Shown: positions 3,582-60,786 of the stretch, piece by piece
Layout: each line of letters opens with the position of its first letter
Numbering within the stretch: the first letter of the stretch is position 1
Assembly: GCA_019638705.1 (NCBI GenBank)
Contig: JAHBTI010000006.1
Location: 62,001 to 126,000 of the forward strand
DNA from: Bacteroidota bacterium
Lineage (GTDB): Bacteria > Bacteroidota > Bacteroidia > B-17B0 > Aurantibacillaceae
DNA length: 64,000 nt
Direction of reading: 5' to 3'
The notes under the pieces: generated by a model
Database searches by the model: none
Seen by the model: only the letters and a program-made list of their open reading frames with translations
Told to the model about the DNA's origin: nothing
Translations under genes and position numbers: made by a program

Positions 3582-4475
3582 ATGACCATTATTCCTCCAT
3601 ACTTAAAAAAAGACGATACCATTTTAATTATTGGCACGGCGCGCGCAAGAAACAAAGAAGCCGTGCAGCCTGCGATTGATATTTTAAAATCGTGGGGATT
3701 AAATGTGGAACTTGGAAAAAATTTGTTTAAAGTTCATCATCAGTTTGCAGGAACAGACAAAGAACGTGCGGAAGATTTAACTTGGGCTATTAACCACAAA
3801 ACCGCGAAAGCCGTATTGATTGCAGGTGGCGGCTACGGCACATTGCGCATTATTGATAATGTAAAATTTAAGCCGCTTTTAAAATTTCCGAAATGGTTTG
3901 TGGGTTACAGCGACACCACCGTTATTCAAAGTCGTTTAGCAAAACTTGGCATAGCAAGCATACACGGCACTATGGCATTTCAGTTTGCAAAAAATGAAGA
4001 AGCAACCTTGAGCGTAAAAAAATTATTGTTCGGCGAAAAAGTAAATTACAACATTGAAAAACACACATTAAATCGTACAGGCAAGGCGCAAGGCGAAGTC
4101 GTTGGCGGAAATTTGTCGTTGATTTATGCTTTGAGCAACAGCGTGGACGATTTAAACACCAAAAACAAAATTTTATTCATAGAAGATTTGGACGAGCAAT
4201 TGTATCACATTGACCGTATGCTGTTGCAACTAAAACGCAGCGGCAAATTAAAACACCTGAAAGCCCTTATTATTGGCGGCATGACGGAAATGAAAGACAA
4301 CGCCATACCTTACGGAAAAACCGCCGAAGAAATTATTTTTGACGCGGTGAAAGAATACAACTATCCCTTATGTTTTAACTTCCCTGCGGGGCATATTGAA
4401 AAAAACATGGCTTTGTATTTCGGTAAAAAAGCAAAACTTGAAGTAACAAAAACGAAAGTGAGTTTTGGGTACTAA
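3582..4475 (+). CDS. ldcA: LD-carboxypeptidase (peptidase family S66)
   Basis: Murein LD-carboxypeptidase removing the terminal D-Ala from muropeptide tetrapeptides during cell-wall recycling. Family S66 marks: the AGGGYGTLRIID segment (residues 81-92), the nucleophile in FVGYSD (Ser110), and the later segment with catalytic Glu and His (AGHIEKN near residue 277). Length from this start is 297 residues, typical. An ATG 12 bases upstream (3570) is also in frame, but MTIIPPYLKKDD matches the usual family start. No signal peptide, so it is cytoplasmic. The gene stands alone, divergent from metG and convergent with the DinB-like gene. Confidence 0.92.
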   Translation: MTIIPPYLKKDDTILIIGTARARNKEAVQPAIDILKSWGLNVELGKNLFKVHHQFAGTDKERAEDLTWAINHKTAKAVLIAGGGYGTLRIIDNVKFKPLLKFPKWFVGYSDTTVIQSRLAKLGIASIHGTMAFQFAKNEEATLSVKKLLFGEKVNYNIEKHTLNRTGKAQGEVVGGNLSLIYALSNSVDDLNTKNKILFIEDLDEQLYHIDRMLLQLKRSGKLKHLKALIIGGMTEMKDNAIPYGKTAEEIIFDAVKEYNYPLCFNFPAGHIEKNMALYFGKKAKLEVTKTKVSFGY

Positions 4476-4476
4476 A

Positions 4477-4935
4477 CTACCGCTTATAAAAAATATAATC
4501 CGTAACCAAAGGCTCTATGCCGTTTTGCCTGAACTCCGAAGCTATTTGCCCACGATGATAGGTGGAATGATTAATCACATGAAACAACATATCGCCAACT
4601 TTATTTTGAAAAGATTGCCCTTTGCTGTTTTTGTAGTACGAGATACTGTTTAAATCAACGTTTTCTAAAATATAAATGCTGTGTTCGTAATTCGTTTGAT
4701 TGATTTGCTCAAAATCAACGGCATTATGAATATCGGCATTACGAATATTCCAAACGCCATAGTTTTGCAACTTGTTTTCAATTCTGCTGTTCCAAATATG
4801 ATGTGCGTTAAGTACATGACTGAACAGCTTCACCGATTTTTCACTTGTTTTCTCGGCTTGCGCCACAAACACTTCTGCCAACTTTTGATTGAAGTGGTAA
4901 TTGTATTCAAATAATTCTTTGAAAAAGGTTTCCAT
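4477..4935 (-). CDS. DinB-family protein (putative metal-dependent enzyme)
   Basis: This 152-residue protein has the DinB/YfiT four-helix-bundle pattern with three spaced metal-ligand histidines: one in the second helix (H45/H46 in NAHHIWNSR) and two in the last helix (H123 and H127 in INHSTYHRGQ). Family members bind Ni or Zn and several are thiol-dependent S-transferases (bacillithiol or mycothiol); the substrate of this one is unknown. It is not related to DNA polymerase IV despite the name. Its end lies 1 base from the stop of ldcA on the other strand, so the genes converge without a terminator. Confidence 0.88.
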   Translation of the reverse strand: METFFKELFEYNYHFNQKLAEVFVAQAEKTSEKSVKLFSHVLNAHHIWNSRIENKLQNYGVWNIRNADIHNAVDFEQINQTNYEHSIYILENVDLNSISYYKNSKGQSFQNKVGDMLFHVINHSTYHRGQIASEFRQNGIEPLVTDYIFYKR

Positions 4936-5035
4936 GTTTTTACTTGTTTGGTTTTGTAAAAATAAGGAATTGGAGTGAGTGATGAGAACGTCAGTACGTC
5001 TGCCAACAAACCCTTGTCAGCACCAATTATTTAAT

Positions 5036-5374
5036 TTAATGTTCAATTATTCTTGTCGCTATCAAATGTCCTGTCGAGTCAAAGTCAACAACCAAATAAT
5101 ATGGGTCAATATGAAAACCCGAATTACTTCCTATTGAATATGTCCAATGGATTTCATATTCTGCGGTGTCAATAATCTCTGCTTTATCTAAAAGTTCGTA
5201 CACCTTTTTAAAACTTGTTCCTTTTAATAAATAATTCTGTCTTAAGTCTTCTACCATGTCAAACCGAGGATTATCGGATTTCTGATTTTCGTTTTTGACC
5301 CAAGTTTCCCTGTCGTATTTAGGTTGACAACCTGAAAAAATAAAAATTGTCAATATTGTCACAAGATATTTCAT
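5036..5374 (-). CDS. Small lipoprotein, possibly BamE/SmpA-like
   Basis: The preferred start gives 112 residues: MKYLVTILTIFIFSGC is a lipoprotein signal with lipobox FSGC (Cys16). The mature part holds LLKGTSFKKVYELLDKA followed by strands ending YYLVVDFDSTGHLIATRII. This helix-hairpin then beta layout resembles the BamE/SmpA fold, but I rate the similarity as weak. A frame start 48 bases upstream (5422) would place residues before the signal peptide and is less likely. Base composition is more A/T-rich than in its neighbours. It lies downstream of the UDP-xylose synthase gene on the same strand. Confidence 0.7.
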   Translation of the reverse strand: MKYLVTILTIFIFSGCQPKYDRETWVKNENQKSDNPRFDMVEDLRQNYLLKGTSFKKVYELLDKAEIIDTAEYEIHWTYSIGSNSGFHIDPYYLVVDFDSTGHLIATRIIEH

Positions 5375-5428
5375 AATTGATGCTAACTCAAAAATATGCG
5401 TAATAAAACTACACAAATACACCGAAAG

Positions 5429-6412
5429 TTACTTCCCAAACTGCCTATGCTCTACTTTATTCAATTCATCTTTGCTTAATGATTTAAAATATTCGTAAGT
5501 AATTTTTAAACCTTCGGCGCGGTTTACTTTTGGCTGCCAGCCGAGAATTTCTTTTGCTTTGGTAATGTCGGGGCGGCGTTGTTTCGGGTCGTCTTTTGGC
5601 AAAGGCAAAGAAATTAATTTTTGTTTTGCGCCTGTGAGCTTCAAAATTTCTTCGCCAAATTCTTTAATCGTTATTTCGCTTGGGTTGCCAATGTTTACAG
5701 GCAAATGGTAATCGCTCAAGAGCAAACGGTAAATGCCTTCCACCAAATCGTCCACATAGCAAAAGCTGCGTGTTTGCGAGCCGTCGCCAAACATGGTGAG
5801 GTCTTCCCCGCGCAAAGCCTGCCCAATGAATGCAGGCAGCACACGTCCGTCATTCAAACGCATACGCGGTCCGTAAGTATTAAAAATTCGCACAATGCGC
5901 GTTTCCAAACCATGCGCATCGTGATACGCCATAGTAATCGCTTCCATAAAACGTTTGGCTTCGTCGTAGCAGCCGCGCGGTCCCACAGGATTTACATTAC
6001 CCCAATATTCTTCGTTTTGTGGGTGCACGTGCGGGTCGCCGTACACTTCGCTTGTGGAAGCAACAAGAACTCTCGCTTTCTTCACACGCGCCAAGCCAAG
6101 TATATTGTGCGTTCCCAACGATGACACTTTTAAAGTTTGAATGGGAATTTTTAAATAATCAATCGGGCTTGCAGGCGAAGCAAAATGCAAAATGTAATCC
6201 AAGTCGCCCGGCACAAACACAAATTTTGAAACATCATGATGATAAAATTCAAATTGCTCGAGCTTAAATAAATGCTCAATGTTTTTGAGGTCGCCTGTAA
6301 TCAGGTTGTCCATAGCTACCACGCGATAACTTTCTTTAATAAATCGGTCGCAAAGGTGAGAGCCGAGAAAGCCCGCTGCGCCTGTGATGAGAACTCGTTT
6401 TTGTTTTGTCAT
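5429..6412 (-). CDS. UDP-glucuronate decarboxylase (UDP-xylose synthase), SDR epimerase family
   Basis: Extended short-chain dehydrogenase converting UDP-glucuronate to UDP-xylose with bound NAD. It shows the Rossmann motif GAAGFLG (11-17), the catalytic set T120/S121 in [11 protein letters not shown]149 and K153 in YDEAK, and the family segment [10 protein letters not shown]...[15 protein letters not shown]. Length 327 matches bacterial UXS. It sits directly downstream of ugd, which makes its substrate, so together they supply UDP-xylose for surface polysaccharide. A family-B palindrome separates it from ugd. The UXS call is favoured over GDP- or dTDP-sugar enzymes by the [16 protein letters not shown] context. 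Confidence 0.9.
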
Positions 6413-6417
6413 GTCTT

Positions 6418-6534
6418 TTAATTAGTCAATTAGTTAATTCGGCAATTTGACAATTGGCTTGATGTGGCAATTAGTTAATTTGACAATTCGGCAATTCATT
6501 GGCTAATTGCCACATTGTCTCATCGTCTAATTAG
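6418..6534. repeat. Intergenic palindromic repeat, family B
   Basis: AT-rich repeat built from variants of TTAGTTAATT, GGCAATT and GACAATT. It contains the perfect inverted pair ATGTGGCAATTAG (6462-6474) and CTAATTGCCACAT (6503-6515), 28 bases apart. The same word set recurs at 7858-7945, 8306-8385 and 37828-37902. It fills the gap between ugd and uxs. Confidence 0.8.
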
Positions 6535-7849
6535 TACGAATACCAATACAATAGTAATCAAATCCCGTTTCTTTCATATCCTTATGGTCAAAGATATTTC
6601 GTCCGTCAAAAATCACTTTGTTGTTTAAACGTTTGCTTATTTCCTCAAAATCGGGTGAGCGAAATTCTGGCCACTCGGTTACAATTAACAAAGCATCGCT
6701 GTTGTTCAAAGTTTCGTACATATCGGTTGTGTAAGAAATGCTGTCGCCCAAAATGCGTTGCGCTTCGTGCATGGCAACAGGGTCATACGCCACAACGCTT
6801 GCGCCCGCTTTCAATAATTTTTCAATAATTACCAAACTTGGTGCTTCGCGCATATCGTCTGTTTTTGGTTTGAAAGACAATCCCCACAGCGCAAATGTTT
6901 TTCCTTTTAAATTGTTGTTGAAATGCGTGCGCACTTTATTAAACAACACTTCTTTTTGTGCTTCGTTTACTTCTTCCACCGCAGTTAAAACGCGCATGGT
7001 GTATTTATTTTCTTTCGCAGTTTTAATAATTGCTTTCACATCTTTCGGAAAACAACTTCCGCCATAGCCCACACCGGGGTAAATAAATTTTGTGCCGATA
7101 CGCGCATCGCTGCCAATGCCTTTGCGCACCATGTTCACGTCCGCGCCCATAATTTCGCAGAGGTTGGCAATGTCGTTCATAAAACTGATTTTGGTTGCGA
7201 GCATGGCATTTGCCGCGTACTTCGTCATTTCCGCGCTCGGAATATCCATAAAAATAATCGGGTGTCCGTTCAGCAAAAATGGTTTGTAGAGCTTGCGCAT
7301 AATTTCTTCGGCTTCCGTGCGGTCAGTTCCCACCACAATACGGTCGGGTTTCATAAAGTCTTCAATCGCCGCGCCCTCTTTCAAAAATTCAGGATTGGAA
7401 GCCACAAAAAATTCCATGTTTGAATTACGTTTATCTAATTCCGTTTGCACGGCTTTACGAACTTTTTCGGCAGTAGTAACAGGCACGGTTGATTTTGTAA
7501 CCACCACCAAAGGTTTTTGCATATGCTTGCCAATGTCGGAAGCAACACCCAACACATATTTTAAATCGGCAGAGCCATCTTCATCGGGCGGTGTGCCAAC
7601 GGCAATAAAAGCCACTTCCGCGCCCTGAATACTTTCCTGCAGGGAAGTTGAAAAATGCAAACGTTTTTTATCCACGTTGCGATGCACCATTTCTTCCAAA
7701 CCCGGTTCGTAAATAGGCAAGATGCCTTTGTGCAGGTTATCAATTTTCTTTTGGTCAATGTCCACGCAGGTAACATCAACGCCCACTTCGGCGAAGCAAG
7801 TTCCTGTTACTAATCCAACGTAGCCTGTTCCAACAATTACTATTTTCAT
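6527..7849 (-). CDS. ugd: UDP-glucose 6-dehydrogenase
   Basis: Oxidises UDP-glucose to UDP-glucuronate with 2 NAD+. It has the N-terminal Rossmann motif VGTGYVG (6-12), the TKSTVPVTT and NPEFLKEGAA segments, the catalytic Cys266 in GYGGSCFPKD, and the C-terminal UDP-binding domain (ALWGLSFKPKTDDMREAPS). Length 440 is typical. It lies upstream of UDP-xylose synthase and downstream of a DegT aminotransferase, which together suggest a nucleotide-sugar operon feeding capsule or exopolysaccharide. Both flanking gaps hold family-B palindromes. Confidence 0.97.
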   Translation of the reverse strand: MKIVIVGTGYVGLVTGTCFAEVGVDVTCVDIDQKKIDNLHKGILPIYEPGLEEMVHRNVDKKRLHFSTSLQESIQGAEVAFIAVGTPPDEDGSADLKYVLGVASDIGKHMQKPLVVVTKSTVPVTTAEKVRKAVQTELDKRNSNMEFFVASNPEFLKEGAAIEDFMKPDRIVVGTDRTEAEEIMRKLYKPFLLNGHPIIFMDIPSAEMTKYAANAMLATKISFMNDIANLCEIMGADVNMVRKGIGSDARIGTKFIYPGVGYGGSCFPKDVKAIIKTAKENKYTMRVLTAVEEVNEAQKEVLFNKVRTHFNNNLKGKTFALWGLSFKPKTDDMREAPSLVIIEKLLKAGASVVAYDPVAMHEAQRILGDSISYTTDMYETLNNSDALLIVTEWPEFRSPDFEEISKRLNNKVIFDGRNIFDHKDMKETGFDYYCIGIRTN

Positions 7850-57146: not shown

Positions 57147-57414
57147 ATTACTCCGAACTTATGTTCTTGCTCTCAATTAATAATTAAAAACCATTACCAT
57201 GAAACGTAACATTATTTTTTCTTTATTGCTTGTTACAGGTTTAACGGCAATTAAGGCTCAAGACACTTTGAGTTCGCAACTAAAACGATCTATCGTAAAA
57301 AGATATTCAAGCATTCTGCCCCTGTTATCCGCAGCAGGCGAATTTGGCAGTGGAAGCAGTTCCTTTATAGACGGAACATTAGGACTTCGTATCGGACAAG
57401 GCATTAACATCAAA

Positions 57415-57422
57415 AAAATTAA
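57415..57422. repeat. Target-site duplication, left
   Basis: AAAATTAA immediately before the left inverted repeat; identical copy at 60348-60355. Confidence 0.93.
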
Positions 57423-57506
57423 GGTAACTATATATAATTTTACACAAAATAAATTTGTTTATATGTAAATAACTACTTATATTTGTCGTGTCAAAAATTA
57501 AAGGCA

Positions 57507-58436
57507 ATGATAAATATAGATATTAAATCAATCCCTCAACTATTAAAGGCTTTTCATAGTGAGCAAATTTGTATTGAGCATTTAGAGAAATTACGTTGGA
57601 ATGGCAATGTAATAAGCCCGTTTGATGAAACATCAAAAGTTTATAAGTGTGCAGGAAACAAATATCGTTGTAAAAATACAGGTAAGTATTTCAATGTTCG
57701 TACAGGCACTTTATTTGACAATACTAAAATTGAACTTCAAAAATGGTTTCTTGCTATCTATATTGTAACATCTCACAAAAAAGGCATTTCCTCGCTTCAA
57801 TTAGCCAAAGATATTGACGTAACACAAAAAACAGCGTGGTTTATGTTACAACGCATTCGCAACTGTTTTGGAATTGAAAATCCACATAGCGGCAATGGTG
57901 GAAGTTTAGATAATGAAGTTGAAATTGACGAGGCGTTTGTTGGCGGCAAAAACAAAAACAGGCATAAAAGCAAAAAAGTAGAAAATTCACAAGGTCGCTC
58001 TTATAAAGACAAAACACCTGTTTTAGGAATGGTTGAAAGGGGTGGTAAATTGGCTGCTAAAACCATTGAAAACACACAAGCCGAAACATTAACCCCTGAA
58101 ATCGTTGCAGCCGTTAAACAAACCGCAAACATTTATACCGATGAATGGTTAGGTTACAAAGATATTAAATGGATTTACGACCACGCTTTTGTTAAGCACA
58201 ATAGCCATGAATATGTTAATGGCAGAGTTCACACAAATACTATTGAGGGATTTTGGAGTTTATTAAAAAGAGGTATTTTCGGGATTTATCACTCAACATC
58301 TAAAAAGCATTTACAAAAATATGTTGATGAATTTGTGTTCCGTTACAATACACGTTCAAGTTCTGAAAGTGGACGTTTCAACCAATTACTTTCTAATTCC
58401 GAAAATCGTTTAACTTATAAAAATCTGATAAAATGA
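57507..58436 (+). CDS. IS1595-family transposase (ISXO2-like DDE)
   Basis: A 309-residue DDE transposase. N-terminal Cys residues (C22, C48, C55) are a reduced zinc ribbon, followed by FNVRTGTLFDNTKI typical of the family. The catalytic core has VEIDEAFVGGK (Asp141), YTDEWLGYKD (Asp212) and HTNTIEGFWSLLKRG (Glu247). It cuts at the inverted repeats of the surrounding element. The ATG at 57507 is used; an upstream TTG is not needed. Its stop overlaps the next gene by 4 bp. Confidence 0.95.
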   Translation: MINIDIKSIPQLLKAFHSEQICIEHLEKLRWNGNVISPFDETSKVYKCAGNKYRCKNTGKYFNVRTGTLFDNTKIELQKWFLAIYIVTSHKKGISSLQLAKDIDVTQKTAWFMLQRIRNCFGIENPHSGNGGSLDNEVEIDEAFVGGKNKNRHKSKKVENSQGRSYKDKTPVLGMVERGGKLAAKTIENTQAETLTPEIVAAVKQTANIYTDEWLGYKDIKWIYDHAFVKHNSHEYVNGRVHTNTIEGFWSLLKRGIFGIYHSTSKKHLQKYVDEFVFRYNTRSSSESGRFNQLLSNSENRLTYKNLIK

Positions 58437-59401
58437 AAAACGAATTATTAAAAGCAACACACGGGTCAGATAAAACCCAATTATCTTTAGGAGAAATTAA
58501 AATACCTTGCTATGTATTAAGTGATACAACAAGGGTTTTTTCTGGTAGAGGAATACAAAGGGCATTAGGCTCTAATGCAACATCGGGAACCTGGCTAACA
58601 AAGTTCATAAATGACTCGCCAATAACCAAACATTTAAAAACCGGTGTTTTAGAGCAACTTAACAATCCTATTAAGTTTCAAAGACCACAGGCAGGTGGCT
58701 CACAATCATCAACTTATGGGTATGAAGTTACTATTTTGATTGATATTTGCGACTCTATTTTAGAAGCAAATAAAACCGGTGATAAAATAGATATTGAAAT
58801 AGTCAATAATGCGCAATCTATCATAAGGTCAGTTGCAAAAGTTGGTATTATAGCATTAGTAGATGAGGTAACAGGCTACCAATATGACAGAGAAAGATTT
58901 GAATTACAAAAGATACTACAAGCATATATTTCAGACGAAATTTTAAAATGGCAACTTACCTTTACTGATGATTTCTACAAAGAAATTTATAGATTATGGG
59001 GACTTCCATTTATACCAAAATATATAAAAACAAAACCGTCTTTTATAGGCAAACTAACTTCAAAATACATATACGACCAAATGCCTAAAGGGGTAGTACA
59101 GAAGATAAAAGAAAAAACAGGAAAAACGGAAAGTGGGAATTGGAAATATAAGTGGCATCAGTCATTAACGCCTGAAATTGGAAAGGAACATTTGAAGAAA
59201 CAAATTATAGAAGTTACAACGCTAATGTCTATTTCTCAATCAAAAGAGCAGTTTCAATCCCTGTTTGAGAAAAAATACCAATCAAGGGTTCAATTAGAAT
59301 TAGAATTTAATGAGGAAATAAAAGAACCTGACTTGTCCCAATTCAATAAGCGGCTAAAAACAGCCTTAAACTATAATCCAAAGAATAAAGAGCCAAACTA
59401 A
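58433..59401 (+). CDS. P63C-domain protein, transposon cargo
   Basis: A 322-residue protein overlapping the transposase end by 4 bp (ATGA), thus translationally coupled. The middle has VTGYQYDRERFELQKILQAYI and the WQLTFTDDFYKEIYRLWGLP block, which mark the P63C domain (Pfam PF10546), known from phage and bacterial proteins. The N-terminus (CYVLSDTTRVFSGRGIQRALG) resembles a KilA-like/Phage antirepressor opening, but this is uncertain. The C-terminus is helical and charged. Function unknown. Confidence 0.85.
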   Translation: MKNELLKATHGSDKTQLSLGEIKIPCYVLSDTTRVFSGRGIQRALGSNATSGTWLTKFINDSPITKHLKTGVLEQLNNPIKFQRPQAGGSQSSTYGYEVTILIDICDSILEANKTGDKIDIEIVNNAQSIIRSVAKVGIIALVDEVTGYQYDRERFELQKILQAYISDEILKWQLTFTDDFYKEIYRLWGLPFIPKYIKTKPSFIGKLTSKYIYDQMPKGVVQKIKEKTGKTESGNWKYKWHQSLTPEIGKEHLKKQIIEVTTLMSISQSKEQFQSLFEKKYQSRVQLELEFNEEIKEPDLSQFNKRLKTALNYNPKNKEPN

Positions 59402-59418
59402 TATCGGCTCTTTTTTTT
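59387..59418 (+). terminator. Rho-independent terminator after P63C gene
   Basis: Stem AAAGAGCC (59387-59394) / GGCTCTTT (59406-59413) followed by a run of T, overlapping the stop codon region. Confidence 0.8.
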
Positions 59419-59486
59419 ATTTTGTAATATTATTTCTATACACATAAAATCTAAATATATTTTTTTCATATATTTGGCTCGATATT

Positions 59487-59649
59487 GCAGGCGTTAGTTT
59501 GCTTTGGTTGCCGAAAGTTTCGAAATCCCCAACCACAAATCACAAACTAAACTATTTGCTTGCGTCCTATGGGCGTGAGTTTTGGTTTATTTGATTTGTA
59601 GGTCTTCGAAACACCTCGGCAATAAGTAAATTATTGTCTCACGCCCTGC
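59487..59649. other. Long self-complementary non-coding segment inside the transposon
   Basis: Nested inverted pairs in order: GCAGGCGT (59487) with ACGCCCTGC (59641-59649); a TTGCCGAA...TTTCGAA arm at 59508-59524 with TTCGAAACACCTCGGCAA at 59605-59622; AACCACAAATCACAAACTAA (from 59531) with GTTTTGGTTTATTTGATTTG (59579-59598). The inner apex also holds GGGCGTGAG (59571-59579), complementary to CTCACGCCC (59639-59647), which competes with the outer stem. Nested pairs at this density suggest a folded RNA or a DNA hairpin. It fills most of the 301-bp gap 59402-59702; no gene is seen there. Confidence 0.6.
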
Positions 59650-59702
59650 TTATTTTATATAACGTTACGAGAGAGGCATAGTGACATAAATAACAAATAT
59701 TT

Positions 59703-60089
59703 ATGAAAACTTTAAGGTGGGTATTATTTGCACCAGTATTTCTATTTTACACAACGCTTCCCCAACATTATGCTGAACAACTAAGTAGGTGGGGGTGGTC
59801 ATTGCACCCAACAACTGATATGTGGCTTGTGAAATTATTTTATCTTTTTCTTAATTTTTTTATTTCTGCTACTTCATGGAGCATTTTTGCTGTTGTGGCT
59901 ATGTATTTAATAAGAATAGCTCCTAATACAAAATTAGGAGGAATTATTTTGTTGCTGATTATAGGAACATTAATTTTAATGTCATGGATTTTAGCTTGGA
60001 GTAGCCTTGATAAAATAGATATTGTTTTTGATGTAGAAATTTTAATGATATTATTAGCCGCGTCATCTGGAGCGTTTAAATCAAATTAA
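59703..60089 (+). CDS. Four-helix membrane protein, transposon cargo
   Basis: A 128-residue protein with about four hydrophobic segments: WVLFAPVFLFYTTL, LVKLFYLFLNFFISA, IFAVVAMYLIRIA and LGGIILLLIIGTLILMSWIL. No recognised family. It lies between the self-complementary segment and the small charged protein gene and is inside the element. Confidence 0.7.
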   Translation: MKTLRWVLFAPVFLFYTTLPQHYAEQLSRWGWSLHPTTDMWLVKLFYLFLNFFISATSWSIFAVVAMYLIRIAPNTKLGGIILLLIIGTLILMSWILAWSSLDKIDIVFDVEILMILLAASSGAFKSN

Positions 60090-60104
60090 CTTTATACTAT
60101 AATT

Positions 60105-60308
60105 ATGGAAAATTACGAGCAACAACAGAAGAAGTACAAAGAGGGACTAAAAGCGTTCAAGGAGCAGTTATTGAAGAAAAACAAACAAGAGATGAAAGAA
60201 GCCGAGAAGATGTCGCAGCGACAATACTCTTGGGAGCAGAAACGCAAGCAGATAGACGAGAGCTTTCAGACACACGGTCAGGCAAATCCGAACAAGAGGC
60301 GTTTATGA
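60105..60308 (+). CDS. Small charged Lys/Gln/Glu-rich protein, transposon cargo
   Basis: A 67-residue protein of mainly E, K and Q (KEGLKAFKEQLLKKNKQEMK), predicted to be one helix or coiled coil, ending NPNKRRL. Starts 15 bases after the membrane protein stop, and its stop is 16 bases before the right inverted repeat. No family recognised. Confidence 0.65.
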   Translation: MENYEQQQKKYKEGLKAFKEQLLKKNKQEMKEAEKMSQRQYSWEQKRKQIDESFQTHGQANPNKRRL

Positions 60309-60347
60309 CTATGTTAAATTTTTAGTGTAAATTTGTATGTAGTTACC

Positions 60348-60355
60348 AAAATTAA
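60348..60355. repeat. Target-site duplication, right
   Basis: AAAATTAA directly after the right inverted repeat, matching 57415-57422. Confidence 0.93.
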
Positions 60356-60786
60356 TATTGGTATTGATGTAAGCCACGAAGTATATTATCAAAAAGGCTC
60401 AAACAATACATTTATTTCTTATTTGCGCGCTTATGGTGAATATCAATTTTATCAAAACAAAAAAGCAACATTTCTTGTAGGCGTAAGACCTTACGGTTTC
60501 AGATTTGAGTACACGCCTACGGATTGGTATCAGTTTTTGAATGACCCGATTGACGGAAAACAGCATACGCACTTTATTGGAGGTGTTTCCTTATACACAA
60601 GTGCAGATATTAGAATTCGAGAAAAATGTCATCTTGTATTCGGCTTAGGTTTGGATAAAAAATTTTCTACAAAGAGTGGTTTGCTACCACGAAATTTACC
60701 AATGATTTTCATGCTTGATTTCCGTGCACCGTTTCCGAAATTTATGATGAAGAAAAATTCAAAAGTTCAGAATTATTACTAATCAC

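Follow-up and report, generated by a model that had tools for sequence, protein, structure and literature searches.

An IS1595 transposon inserted in a host gene

The window (the whole 64,000-nucleotide stretch of Bacteroidota DNA analyzed here) contains a complete transposon of 2925 bp at positions 57423-60347. Its ends are a left terminal inverted repeat (57423..57445, + strand; GGTAACTATATATAATTTTACAC) and a right one (60325..60347, - strand; GGTAACTACATACAAATTTACAC) that are identical at 20/23 positions. On either side stands one copy of a perfect 8-bp target duplication with no assigned strand (AAAATTAA; left copy 57415..57422, right copy 60348..60355). The end pattern GGTAACTAYATA is found in the 64 kb only at the two element ends, versus 0.25 occurrences expected. 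Between these ends lie a transposase gene (tnp), an accessory gene with a P63C domain, a structured leader element, and genes for two small proteins, one of the membrane and one charged. The element is single-copy in its genome, with the tnp and P63C genes each present once.

The insertion has broken a host gene for an exported-protein-like product (57199..60782, + strand). Without the element and one duplication copy, the flanks 57199-57422 and 60356-60782 join into one uninterrupted frame of 216 codons, so that the sequence on its own demonstrates insertion into a gene: IS1595-type transposition produced the 8-bp duplication and the disrupted gene. The first-pass annotation had suggested looking for related empty sites. 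Across the 39 other genomes of the genus that we searched, no homologue of the interrupted gene turned up, so the empty site is read from the restored frame.

The tnp gene (57507..58436, + strand) encodes an IS1595-family DDE transposase of 309 aa from the ATG used, assigned with curated models and an alignment. It matches NF033547 with E 3e-59 (200.3 bits, cut-off 75) and PF12762 with E 1e-44 (152 bits, cut-off 27), and D141, D212 and E247 are invariant in the alignment; a possible N-terminal zinc ribbon scores 14.9 bits against PF12760, under the cut-off of 25.4. In its DDE_Tnp_IS1595 domain, its GG-starting inverted repeats, its 8-bp duplication and its single transposase, the element agrees with the IS1595 family (ISXO2-like transposases). 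Descriptions of that family give it a single transposase gene (PMC8101967, PMC12561309), a state that is usual rather than a strict family criterion; with three genes besides tnp between its ends, the element does not match this plain form. It also differs from what these papers describe in having an accessory protein with a shared tail, neither of which they mention.

The annotation was therefore right to call this a complete single-transposase IS1595 element with exact ends and further genes. It had also held that cargo is unusual for such an element, a reading we reject, since cargo is common among relatives: MTnSag1 and tISCpe8 are published IS1595-type mobilizable transposons with cargo (PMC5704250), and the majority of the related elements that we could bound carry more than tnp. 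In MTnSag1 and tISCpe8, as here, an IS1595 transposase mobilizes other genes between comparable ends (25-bp inverted repeats and 8-bp repeats; PMC5704250); they differ in being mobilizable elements, tISCpe8 being, by its title at least, a lincomycin resistance element (PMC5704250). As an IS1595 transposon with cargo, the element is ordinary.

Cargo of another kind is seen at L085, where a complete IS1595 element of 3322 bp (3944-7265 on the transposase strand; 24-bp perfect inverted repeats) carries a type II methyltransferase, with the tail motif described below (here SFDDVLKKVVG) in its N-terminus, and a 385-aa partner. At two further IS1595 loci (L124, L125), large DNA-methylase-like genes begin at the tnp stop codon.

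An accessory protein with a variable head and a shared tail

The accessory gene (58433..59401, + strand) overlaps tnp by 4 nt and encodes a protein of 322 aa, made up of a Bro-N-like N-terminal part, a P63C domain (PF10546, E 1e-26, 93.7 bits, cut-off 26.1) and a C-terminal tail. The annotation had counted it as cargo and had proposed a search of other Bacteroidota for IS1595 transposases followed by a P63C gene. That search was positive, with tnp and P63C as neighbors in six other loci; the two genes overlap or abut in Apibacter muscae, a Paraprevotella MAG and Flavobacterium lotistagni, and likewise in three further Bacteroidia genomes (L119-L121; P63C E 9e-22 to 2e-32). Several of the elements are complete. 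The Flavobacterium copy (L006) spans 2838 bp, with inverted repeats of the same type, nearly identical ends and a perfect 8-bp duplication; P63C elements with perfect 8-bp duplications measure 3700 bp (L139) and 2969 bp (L140), and counterparts with a KilA-N gene measure 2309 bp (L117) and 2406 bp (L118). The element at L121 (2045 bp, perfect 8-bp duplication AAATTTAC) has nothing inside except tnp and P63C. Because the pair recurs and stands alone at L121, P63C is no chance passenger of the window copy; core gene is a better description of it than cargo. A search for literature on IS1595 elements with P63C or KilA-N genes found nothing.

The tail (SQFNKRLKTALNYNPKNKEPN, 59336..59398, + strand; LSQFNKRLKTALNYNPKN in the comparison of protein ends) is common to accessory proteins of other IS1595 elements and follows the pattern [DS]-F-[DN]-K-x-L-K. 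It closes not only P63C proteins (L119, TNFDKQLKGLLAVPPPRK; L121, NDFDKTLKGILSVPLP) and the accessory protein of L006 (LSGFNKNLQQGLNFDPN) but also KilA-N proteins (L117, LSPFNKTLRQATDYNPN; L118, STFDKELGAILKVPPPDKKK; L122, SEFDKAIDQLLKFNP), small proteins of no known type and Lys-rich mini-proteins behind other IS1595 transposases (for example L129, GSFDEVLKAMINTP); L060 (LSDFNKALLKARHFKK) and L070 (LIDFNEKIKAALKFVP) provide further instances. In Apibacter (L003), the tail residues can be read by eye in another frame beyond the present stop codon.

The instances were at first picked by eye, a selection that a held-out set partly cures. A leave-one-out profile places the tail where expected in most proteins; with close relatives left out, the window tail alone is not significant (p 0.23), so that it is the set as a whole that carries the case. 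When trained on the first set and applied to the held-out set, the profile finds the tail in L118, L121, L122, L129 and L131 (p <= 0.0065) and in L119 (p 0.067), each time at the C-terminus; in held-out L117 and L120 the eye picks out a tail, although the profile has its best match elsewhere. Counted over all ORFs in the collected loci, the profile scores at least 12 bits in 14/155 ORFs just downstream of tnp versus 5/2523 elsewhere (Fisher 2e-14), and three of those five are themselves short, with the motif towards their end. By the profile, the tail is at the C-terminus of none of 15 P63C proteins from phages, plasmids and other loci. Some IS1595 elements were not seen to have a tailed protein at all (12/41 rows of the transposase tree). 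On an alphaproteobacterial plasmid, an IS1595 transposase is followed at +206 by a 49-aa protein with a tail-like stretch (L111, RFNERLRKLAKQK), a resemblance hinting that the tail may reach beyond Bacteroidota.

The heads in front of this tail vary. In the transposase tree, the clade that includes the window holds 17 rows (support 100/99), all but one with a tailed protein, and P63C, KilA-N and other heads are intermingled in it. The transposases of L118 (KilA-N head) and L119 (P63C head) are sisters (77% identical, support 100/96), their elements share 74% DNA identity between the left end and the tnp stop codon, where homology breaks off, and both accessory genes end in the tail. Such a pattern, read from the tree and the alignments, shows that heads are exchanged between elements.

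For the window head itself, the predicted structure is of modest confidence (pLDDT 71, pTM 0.45). Its best matches in a viral fold search include Mx8 p63, repressor-domain, Bro-N and antirepressor models, the Bro-N models at low TM-scores, and no Bro-N or KilA-N Pfam domain matches; among solved structures, the P63C protein has no match by sequence and none by fold in the PDB. By Pfam (P63C) and a weak Bro-N fold match, the head thus resembles the P63C/Bro-N/KilA-N regulators of phages (Mx8 p63, antirepressors), whereas the phage and plasmid proteins lack the tail and do not sit beside an IS1595 transposase. One P63C protein of this kind, from Streptococcus satellite phage Javan441 (L014, 5965-6927), is 53% identical to that of the window and is without the tail.

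Probable payload genes and a structured leader

Behind the accessory gene, the 128-aa protein (59703..60089, + strand), likely payload, is hydrophobic, with about 3-4 membrane segments in a simple hydropathy scan, and has no homologue in the other genomes of the class that were searched or in plasmids. The 67-aa charged protein (60105..60308, + strand) is also without a homologue: its weak matches (E 0.001-0.005) fall inside larger signaling-type proteins, and we read them as charged-helix similarity. Neither protein matches a family. Small membrane proteins are encoded at the equivalent place in L117 and L118, with no sequence similarity noticed.

A conserved structured leader (59490..59646, + strand) ends 56 nt before the ATG of the membrane-protein gene. 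It corresponds to what had been noted as a self-complementary segment. Self-complementarity alone does not make it strange, as other window segments score equally high; it is the conservation of the leader that counts. The segment 59402-59702, with 59490-59646 as its core, folds with a z of -5.7 relative to shuffles. Segments of the same plan occur in L004, L139, L060, L061, L063, L132 and L133, and a covariance model adds copies in L059, L072 and L074. The plan starts with a 5' GCGT, followed by a long imperfect hairpin of varying sequence whose 3' side carries GG and CC (mostly AGG and ACC), an apical strand GCGTGGG and a 3' strand CCCACGC, at a near-constant spacing of 64-66 nt in exact matches; one strand of the window's leader reads CUCACGCCC. 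Over 15 sequences, the GCGTGGG and CCCACGC strands pair in 98.3% of cells versus 40-60% in slid controls, and 4/8 pairs vary on both sides. In 11/15 copies the 3' strand also complements a segment just downstream, through 5 to 7 Watson-Crick pairs; most of these matches, though not all, beat shuffles, and the one in the window copy is weak. As the 3' strand matches both the apical strand and the downstream segment, two mutually exclusive pairings are possible.

The leader is widespread. At least one copy is present in 55/242 Bacteroidia genomes, by E-values that are rough, and the window's own genome has four more confident copies (L147-L150; C5, C18, C23 and C9) that lie off the transposon. 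The genes that follow them are one for an exported protein, two resembling DNA methyltransferases and one of LuxR type; in this genome no other relative of the window transposase was found. We reject the idea of an IS1595-specific RNA, since most copies are away from IS1595. Among loci with a recognizable closing helix, which include a few repeats of copies beside IS1595, a gene starts 40-65 nt past the 3' strand in 18/26, versus 6.5% of random positions. The leader typically lies about 55 nt ahead of genes for envelope proteins or methyltransferases; named by eye, the genes behind it are mostly those of exported, lipo- or membrane proteins, with some DNA methylases.

Its fixed distance from start codons and the ability of its 3' strand to pair either with the apical strand or, in the majority of copies, further downstream are features that the leader shares with riboswitches and attenuators (cis-regulatory leader RNAs); it differs from these in matching no Rfam 15 family. 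The Rfam 15 covariance models gave only a chance match elsewhere in the window and, in six loci with other copies, no match at the element. In a comparison by eye with integron attC sites, the fixed position before start codons speaks against a cassette-end site. From position and conservation, this candidate RNA (or DNA) element probably controls expression of the payload gene.

These distributions also bear on the proposal that P63C, membrane protein, small protein and palindrome form one module, and they do not favor it: P63C tracks the transposase, the palindrome is found far from IS1595 as well, and the membrane and small proteins were found nowhere else.

Interpretation and alternatives

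We propose that the element is made up of a two-gene core, tnp and the overlapping accessory gene, and a separate payload. By comparison between elements, the accessory protein combines an exchangeable phage-regulator head, here Bro-N-like plus P63C, with a constant C-terminal tail. The tail most likely docks the protein on the complex of transposase and ends, and the head, which binds DNA in its phage relatives, would tune transposition through expression, end pairing or target choice. The membrane and charged protein genes would be the payload, sitting behind a leader that probably controls payload expression. For this reading of the window element, with docking, tuning and leader control all included, we put the chances at about even. 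The general form of the proposal is held more tentatively and falls somewhat short of that: in Bacteroidota, and perhaps more widely, IS1595 elements would use a modular cofactor with a swappable DNA-binding head and a docking tail, and their payload, like many dispersed envelope and restriction genes, would be under an undescribed, switch-like leader RNA.

Within the open-licence literature that could be searched, both the accessory gene, with its tail and swapped heads, and the leader are new. Should the tail indeed dock on the transposase, the IS1595 family would pair one transposase with interchangeable heads for regulation or targeting. Such a design would naturally allow the place or time of an element's movement to change, and the tail would offer a sequence handle by which to recognize accessory proteins lacking any other similarity. 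Independently of the transposon, the leader is a candidate for a new family of regulatory RNAs, occurring in roughly one in five of the Bacteroidia genomes searched and positioned before secreted, lipoprotein, membrane and DNA-methylase genes.

The tail might instead dock on a host factor (e.g., replication or chromosome proteins) or act as a stability signal, with the transposase untouched by the accessory protein. A short, helix-like tail with K/P residues at its end would fit this, and Lys-rich tail-only proteins would suit nucleoid binding; yet the tail tracks IS1595 transposases, and P63C proteins of phages and plasmids do without it, and we regard this alternative as unlikely.

A cassette for phage defense or superinfection exclusion, in which P63C senses or regulates and the membrane protein is the effector, appears improbable to us. 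In its favor, a type II methyltransferase and its partner (L085) or DNA-methylase-like genes (L124, L125) are found in related IS1595 elements, tailed genes are again followed by small membrane proteins in L117 and L118, and P63C genes of phages and plasmids lie near repressor, integrase, sieB, Abi and DndB genes. However, PADLOC found no match among the four proteins of the element, and P63C stays constant beside tnp while the downstream genes vary or are absent (L121), which is not how one half of a defense pair would behave. The L085 genes make a defensive payload possible in the family, unproven in the window element. Defense had been one function suggested in the first-pass annotation, and nothing positive for it emerged from the window copy; transposition control, the other option that it named, agrees with the two-gene-core reading that we prefer.

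Still more doubtful is a mere transcriptional repressor or antirepressor of tnp, of phage origin and with the tail as a relic of gene-end ancestry: the heads are indeed of phage-regulator types (KilA-N, Bro-N, P63C), but the tail is present on unrelated heads, in Lys-rich mini-proteins and near the N-terminus of the L085 methyltransferase, and its retention across such different contexts suggests that it is selected as such.

Apart from IS1595, a Sphingomonadaceae locus (L007, 2866-4876) has a P63C gene divergent from a DDE transposase gene that looks IS1-like by eye, a possible second association between a transposon and P63C.
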